DNA from: a virus
DNA: 39,596 nt
IMG/VR virus record: IMGVR_UViG_3300027852_000091
Location: 1-39,596 of that record
Direction: 5' to 3' (one strand)
Shown: piece by piece, positions 9,388 through 9,777 of the stretch
Position numbering within the stretch: the stretch's first letter is position 1
Layout of the letters: the number at the start of each line of letters is the position of its first letter
Notes under the pieces: generated by a model
Told to the model about the DNA's origin: nothing
The model's input: the letters and a program-made list of their open reading frames with translations, nothing else
Databases searched by the model: none
Translations under genes and position numbers: made by a program

Positions 9388-9389
9388 TT

Positions 9390-9422
9390 AGCAGGATAAC
9401 CAATCGCCTCAGTTATCCTGCT
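9390..9422. other. Perfect 11-bp inverted repeat 3' of the Tad2 gene
   Basis: AGCAGGATAAC at 9390-9400 and its exact complement at 9412-9422 surround an 11-base loop. It lies between the Tad2 stop codon and dock A, inside the cassette. It has no T-run on either side, so it is not a classic terminator; it may stabilise the mRNA end, or be a relic of a second core site, because it contains TAAC and GTTA at the loop. Confidence 0.6.
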
Positions 9423-9428
9423 ATATTG

Positions 9429-9674
9429 CTATCCTACGTCAAGCCAATCTTCCGCGAGCATATCGGTTTGAGATGCCAACCAAGGTACTCGGCTTTTTGG
9501 TGCTGCCTCGTTATCGGTTTGTAAGCCGGTTGTATCAATAAATATATAAGGGCTTGTCATTTTGCTGTTGTCATCAGGAGTTTGCAGCTCAATAAAAATA
9601 CCTCGACCATTCCATCCTTCACGGGCAACCTTTCTACCGCACTTCAACTCATGTATTGCTTCACCAAAGTTCAT
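9429..9674 (-). CDS. tad2: Tad2-family (DUF2829) anti-Thoeris protein, cassette A1
   Basis: An 81-residue protein that matches DUF2829/Tad2 through its whole length: MNFGEAIHELKCGRKVAREG at the start, the FIELQTPDD and SPYIFIDTTG strands, and the C-terminal VPWLASQTDMLAEDWL. Tad2 proteins sequester the cyclic ADP-ribose signal made by Thoeris ThsB and so block that defence. I chose the ATG at 9674 because GGAG lies nine bases upstream; a longer frame from 9695 lacks one. The gene is the first cassette next to dock A: core box GTTAGCAGG at 9387 is the exact complement of CCTGCTAAC at 9718. Its TAG stop is one of only two cassette stops outside a core box. Confidence 0.88.
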   Translation of the reverse strand: MNFGEAIHELKCGRKVAREGWNGRGIFIELQTPDDNSKMTSPYIFIDTTGLQTDNEAAPKSRVPWLASQTDMLAEDWLDVG

Positions 9675-9719
9675 AATATTTCTCCGCACAGTCAAAGGTT
9701 GTGCATACCTATAAAATCC

Positions 9720-9777
9720 TGCTAACCAGCAGCTCCAGCGGATTCGCTACGCTCACCGCTGAGCATGGGCGTTATGT
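9720..9777 (-). other. attC site A1 (58 bp)
   Basis: On the plus strand it has a left box TGCTAAC, arms CTCCAGCGG and CCGCTGAGC that pair, a short loop, and a right box GTTATGT. This is a textbook attC length and shape. The left box extends to CCTGCTAAC, the complement of the box at dock A; the right box extends to GTTATGTTGC, the complement of 9979-9988. The standard attC polarity is on the plus strand, opposite to the gene. Confidence 0.85.

Follow-up and report, generated by a model that had tools for sequence, protein, structure and literature searches.

A tad2 gene apparently carried as a mobile cassette in an inverted, integrase-less attC array of a phage

Integrons are gene-capture devices of bacteria and also stores of anti-phage defence. 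Integrase-less attC arrays (CALINs) with methyltransferase cargo have been described in lytic phages, and IntI1 works on five of the six attC sites tested from such CALINs (Qi et al. 2023, PMC9892861). Insertion of cassettes is further reported at attG sites of bacterial genomes (Loot et al. 2024, as cited in PMC12901181 and PMC11389934), and the storage of anti-phage defence genes in chromosomal integrons likewise places cassettes in the conflict between phages and bacteria (Darracq et al. 2025, as cited in PMC13064858). The kinds already on record are thus Tad2 proteins, CALINs in phages and the attG route of insertion.

The window analysed here covers an IMG/VR virus record, 39,596 bp long, in full. 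It carries an end repeat of 142 bp (4–145 and 39455–39596) and is therefore probably a complete phage genome, with genes for terminase, portal, major head protein and endolysin. Three integron-like arrays together hold 14 attC cores and 14 cassettes (Table 1), and no tyrosine recombinase (PF00589) was found in a search across the phage; the arrays thus match the definition of a CALIN, in which two or more attC sites occur without an integron integrase in the same element. As in the phages of Qi et al., a methyltransferase is among the cargo. An IMG/VR contig (L001) is identical to the window over the fetched stretch 14025–27194. A megablast search of window positions 1–12000 against named phages returned no match, a distant search with arrays A and B returned short matches only, and an Rfam search gave no family match. 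Two diverged copies of a gene resembling HNH-type homing endonucleases (18227–18892 and 21411–22235) have relatives in another phage contig, L223.

Table 1. Positions of array, cassette, gene and dock features in the window
Feature	Position	Strand	Remarks
Apparently resident 36-aa ORF	10318–10428	−	ahead of first attC of array A, no cassette; complementary upstream box absent
Array A	10316–9387	−	
Core A1	10269–10316	−	box and core analysis
Cassette A2	10048–10268	−	box and core analysis
Core A2	9989–10047	−	
Cassette A3	9771–9988	−	gene start 10002 inside core A2
Core A3	9727–9770	−	precedes Tad2; core features; assigned to the mobile Tad2 unit by its inverted polarity
Tad2 cassette	9387–9726	−	final cassette of array A; starts GTTAGCAGGAT, ends ATCCTGCTAAC; 11-nt complementary ends
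tad2 gene	9429–9674	−	anti-Thoeris family; 81 aa; PF11195, PDB Tad2 and fold matches
Hairpin ending Tad2 cassette	9390–9422	−	3' arm continues into R'' box
Dock A	9327–9386	−	conserved half-attC-like site AGCGGTAATAAGCGGCACAC with leader and beginning of gene 9336; 64 nt match L223 at 86% identity
Array B	14339–17556	+	cores at 14339, 14907, 15193, 15529, 15911, 16119, 16422, 16690 and 17075; nine cassettes
Dam methyltransferase	14399–14905	+	first cassette of array B; Pfam
Core B6	16422–16480	+	identical to core A2; AGGAA.. and in-frame start (MLNDLL) of next gene
Dock B	17557–17627	+	shared dock motif
Array C	24533–25088	+	cores 24533–24576 and 24801–24848; cassettes 24577–24800 and 24849–25088
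Dock C	25089–25168	+	shared dock motif

The tad2 reading frame encodes 81 amino acids from its ATG start, or 88 from an upstream TTG. The preliminary description had named it a clear Tad2/DUF2829 gene, and the match to the Tad2-like family PF11195 (Pfam; 80.6 bits against a cut-off of 25, E=1.2e-22) bears this out. Relatives in the PDB are SptTad2, HgmTad2/AcrIIA7, SPO1 Tad2 and ModTad2. Structure prediction, suggested there as a check, gave a fold of moderate confidence (pLDDT 80) that matches solved Tad2 structures, among them SPO1 Tad2 (8wje/8smf). The top 23 Foldseek matches, which are all of the significant ones, are to Tad2/AcrIIA7 structures only (TM 0.60–0.70, probability 1.00).

The anti-Thoeris action of the protein is putative, being taken from its family. 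One PDB member of that family bears the name AcrIIA7, and those so called bind cGG besides cADPR; moreover, some Tad2 proteins bind cyclic dinucleotides via an insertion between beta2 and beta5 (PMC12043709). The window protein might on these grounds be a cyclic dinucleotide sponge (CBASS) or an AcrIIA7-like anti-CRISPR rather than an anti-Thoeris protein. We consider this rather unlikely, as the 81-residue protein aligns end to end with SPO1 Tad2 (90 residues) and not with the longer SptTad2 and HgmTad2 (101–104 residues), so that the insertion of the longer members is probably missing. An anti-Thoeris function is accordingly the one retained below as putative.

Every cassette starts with GTT and finishes with AAC (14/14), and in each the two ends are perfectly complementary over 6–11 nt, with a mean of 9.1 nt. 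When ends were swapped between cassettes the mean was 4.9 nt, and none of 100,000 permutations was as good (p<1e-5); the complementarity of cassette ends is not due to chance. For the Tad2 cassette, the boxes GTTAGCAGG (9726–9718, minus strand) and CCTGCTAAC (9395–9387) had been described as perfect complements, and the pairing in fact exceeds the 9 nt first given, reaching 11 nt (GTTAGCAGGAT/ATCCTGCTAAC). Its placement as the dock-proximal cassette of array A was also correct, since it is the last of that array and dock A follows directly. The attC cores have imperfectly paired L arms with unpaired extra bases, as is characteristic of such sites. A covariance model made from the attC sites of the window contained no base pairs and was dropped.

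Genes that precede the first core lack the partner box in all three arrays and look resident. One such reading frame, ahead of array B (14134–14338), appears interrupted by a frameshift or early stop, and is possibly a decayed resident gene or the product of a sequencing error. Among the cassette proteins tested besides Tad2 and the Dam methyltransferase, no convincing Pfam family was found, and one has a weak PHROG match to a family of unknown function. The genes of cassettes A3 and B4 have a common 24-nt end, ATGATTAAAGCAACATAACGCCCA (9766–9789 and 15892–15915), and differ elsewhere; both products consequently end in MIKAT, and recombination inside cassettes is a possible origin of the shared end. 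The protein of cassette B2 (14983–15183) resembles one encoded outside the arrays of the same phage (19366–19566), both containing TGAITDxNG, so that cassettes and resident genes may exchange. The Tad2 cassettes of the window and of four contigs (L040, L041, L137 and L198) have a hairpin just ahead of R'', with an arm that repeats the R' sequence; this hairpin may serve as a terminator or else belong to the recombination signal.

Among 160 Tad2 loci, five (L040, L041, L137, L198 and L199) are flanked by cassette boxes 8 nt or longer in a plausible attC context, against 0.65 expected by chance. Two of these (L040 and L041) are bacterial MAG contigs. The Tad2 genes of the named phages MW202475 and XC38 and of CBW1004C-Prop1 are not in cassettes; L156 passed the box test but has no attC context, and L043 is suggestive but has poorly matching boxes.

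Contigs L198 and L199 have 385 nt in common at 100% identity, in the order AAC–core–Tad2–CTAAC with the preceding core included, and the DNA on either side of this unit is unrelated between them. Comparison of L198 with seven empty relatives (L249 and L251–L256) reveals an insertion of exactly 382 bp, whereas in the seven contigs the flanks are directly joined at TTATAATCAC|AACACCTAAACTC. The left flank is 97–99% identical over 300 nt in all seven, and the right flank is 100% identical in five and 77% in two. Read on the opposite strand, both junctions in L198 and its seven relatives are exact exchanges at G|TT, and the cassette went in next to a TATAAT motif that precedes a Cro-like gene. The filled allele of this site is represented by one contig, and L199 adds the same cassette elsewhere. 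The pair of empty and filled sites belongs to a phage family different from that of the window, and the site is not a dock; for the window's own docks no empty relative was found. The claim that Tad2 is a mobile cassette is thus supported by the filled site, the seven empty ones and the identical cassette of L199, with the proof coming from relatives and not from the window itself. From the sequence, the mobile unit of the window Tad2 would also take in core A3.

The cassettes could conceivably be ordinary phage 'morons', exchanged when repeated attC-like palindromes undergo homologous recombination, without any integron integrase. Cores do recur within and between phages (core A2 equals core B6, and identity to L238 reaches up to 98%), phages recombine readily, and the window encodes an Erf-like annealing protein. 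We nevertheless judge this very improbable: L198 and L199 share exactly one unit, from AAC to AAC, with no homology outside it, the flanks around the insertion are intact relative to the seven empty contigs, and the complementarity of the ends is specific to each cassette. Movement of the cassettes by an integron integrase is the preferred explanation.

The attC sites of the window are, by their base composition at either end and their arm asymmetry, of opposite polarity to the genes. Read in the direction of the genes, all 14 cores start with GC after AAC and 13 of them end with TT before GTT, whereas 38 control cores in gene sense start with AA in 34 cases and end with GC in 32. The extra unpaired base lies in the right arm of 11 of the 14 window cores versus the left arm of 33 of the 38 controls, which were taken from the integrase-bearing arrays L206 (Shewanella prophage) and L207 (Vibrio phage), the bacterial-type array L214 and phage TJE1 (L200). 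The gene is therefore not upstream of its own attC, as it is in canonical cassettes: in 14 of 14 cases the polarity is reversed, and the core in front of the gene travels with it. The empty and filled junctions confirm the reversal and define the mobile unit as core, gene and R'' box. A scan of viral contigs for the attC pattern gave nine further contigs. Seven of them look inverted (L208, L210–L213, L215 and L216), several on reading by eye; L214 has canonical polarity, and L209 is not clear either way. The published phage CALIN of MW202573 has inverted polarity as well, and in P12002L the CALIN of Qi et al. gave no clear polarity.

The dock sequence AACAGCGGTAATAAGCGGCACAC closes all three arrays, after 9389 (−), 17554 (+) and 25086 (+). 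After the last cassette of other phage contigs with different genes (L215, L217/L222, L218, L220, L221 and L223) the sequence AACAGCRGTAATAAGCGG is present; apparent matches in L219, L224 and L225 lie inside other sequence and are due to chance. Contig L223 has the same operon layout as the window (a cI-like gene, an HNH gene and, at 13577, a neighbour that is 85% identical). It shares 64 nt at dock A with the window but has two other cassettes and no Tad2. Judged from this one relative with that layout, Tad2 is not fixed at its position in array A; fixation there in all relatives had been named in advance as an outcome that would count against mobility. At another locus, represented by six contigs, L234, L239, L238 and L220 have different genes and a dock, and L235 and L236 have lost the dock together with the cassette, with neither gene nor dock present; the dock comes and goes with the insert there, and it is therefore not simply a fixed resident site. 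Cassettes at this locus differ or are missing between repeats of ATGAATTAA.

The spacing of the dock resembles that of one arm of an attC, and 'attI-like' serves as a working label only; the dock does not adjoin intI, there being no integrase in the phage. A bacterial attI was considered and rejected, the motif being absent from 201 genomes of a Methylococcales MAG's family, which may not be the family of the host. A complete attC was likewise rejected, as some palindromy in docks B and C is not conserved in L223 or L234. Dock C is followed (25169–25235) by an imperfect palindrome, GGCTAC..GTAGCC, and then AATTAATTAACTAAG, perhaps a remnant of another attC. That Tad2 is the youngest cassette of array A is plausible, since in an inverted array new cassettes would come in on the dock side. 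The least credible alternative is that the cassettes are canonical, each attC being the downstream site of the gene before it and the dock a degraded last attC, for although the R'/R'' complementarity within the window alone is the same under both readings and the dock can be read as half an attC, all core asymmetries are reversed, the unit common to L198 and L199 has the preceding core and stops at R'', and docks are alike between phages despite different last cassettes.

With inverted polarity, the core lies ahead of the gene, and start signals may therefore travel with the cassette. Four genes of the window (A3, B3, B4 and B7) begin within the preceding core. The identical cores A2 and B6 read AGGAACGAGCG ATG TTG AAT GAC TTG|TTA, and the same open frame and upstream purine-rich stretch occur in L211, L216 and MW202573, whereas the canonical bacterial-type array L214 has no purine-rich stretch and its frames vary. 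In MW202573 (L203, 2686–3186) the annotated methyltransferase (2794–3186) probably has an earlier start, a TTG that lies within the attC core ahead of it (MNDLLGFPPILDACCGGRQF...).

We consider it highly probable, taken as a whole, that Tad2 is a cassette of an integrase-less, CALIN-like phage array, moved by an outside integrase and countering Thoeris. Such cassettes move from virus to virus, apparently with the help of an enzyme not encoded by the viruses. The incoming cassette would be circular, with a folded attC, and an integron integrase from the host or a co-resident element would recombine this attC either with the half-attC-like dock, at which the array would take up inserts, or with a GTT site of the attG kind. 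As the gene is inverted relative to its attC, it would land in the sense of the phage operon and be expressed from the phage's own transcription, with some cores also providing a ribosome-binding site and start codon. Tad2 most likely would sequester the cyclic ADP-ribose signal made by TIR proteins, so that Thoeris does not abort infection, and the arrays may serve as a rack on which small genes are exchanged, those for counter-defence and DNA modification among them. We lean slightly towards a broader proposal, that phages keep a back-to-front cassette pool of their own (core, at times with a ribosome-binding site and start codon in it, then gene), expressed at once and shared among unrelated phages via host integron integrases. 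Were this true, any cassette that enters a dock, or a GTT site, next to phage transcription would be expressed immediately, from a pool that includes Tad2 and DNA methyltransferases.

Phages thus appear to obtain a counter-defence gene through integron machinery, and the empty and filled sites define the unit and its ends. How phages acquire small anti-defence genes with neither transposases nor long homology can now be tested, as can a role of host integrases in phage evolution. Reversed attC polarity is a signature by which such arrays may be found, and their cassettes of unknown function are a place to look for new counter-defence genes.

In comparison to the described systems, the Tad2 counter-defence cassette, the inverted phage arrays and the empty and filled phage sites appear to be new, no counterpart having been found in the open-access literature. 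The CALIN account of Qi et al. 2023, in the parts used here, does not include Tad2, polarity reversal or a comparison of empty and filled sites (PMC9892861). It assigns the typical orientation to TJE1 and PH101, in agreement with the canonical polarity of TJE1 in the present test, whereas MW202573, one of its phages, is inverted like the window when re-read here. The window Tad2 shares Pfam family and fold with SPO1 Tad2 (PDB 8sme/8smf; PMC12043709) but, unlike known Tad2 anti-Thoeris proteins, it rides on an attC cassette, its own function being putative. The insertion in L198 resembles attG insertion, as summarized from Loot et al. 2024 in the citing articles, in that a single cassette enters a non-classical GTT site outside an integron; the target in L198 is, however, a phage early region rather than a bacterial genome, and the gene is inverted relative to its attC. 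Finally, the chromosomal integrons of Darracq et al. 2025, as cited in PMC13064858, hold defence genes of bacteria, whereas the cassette described here carries a counter-defence gene of a phage.
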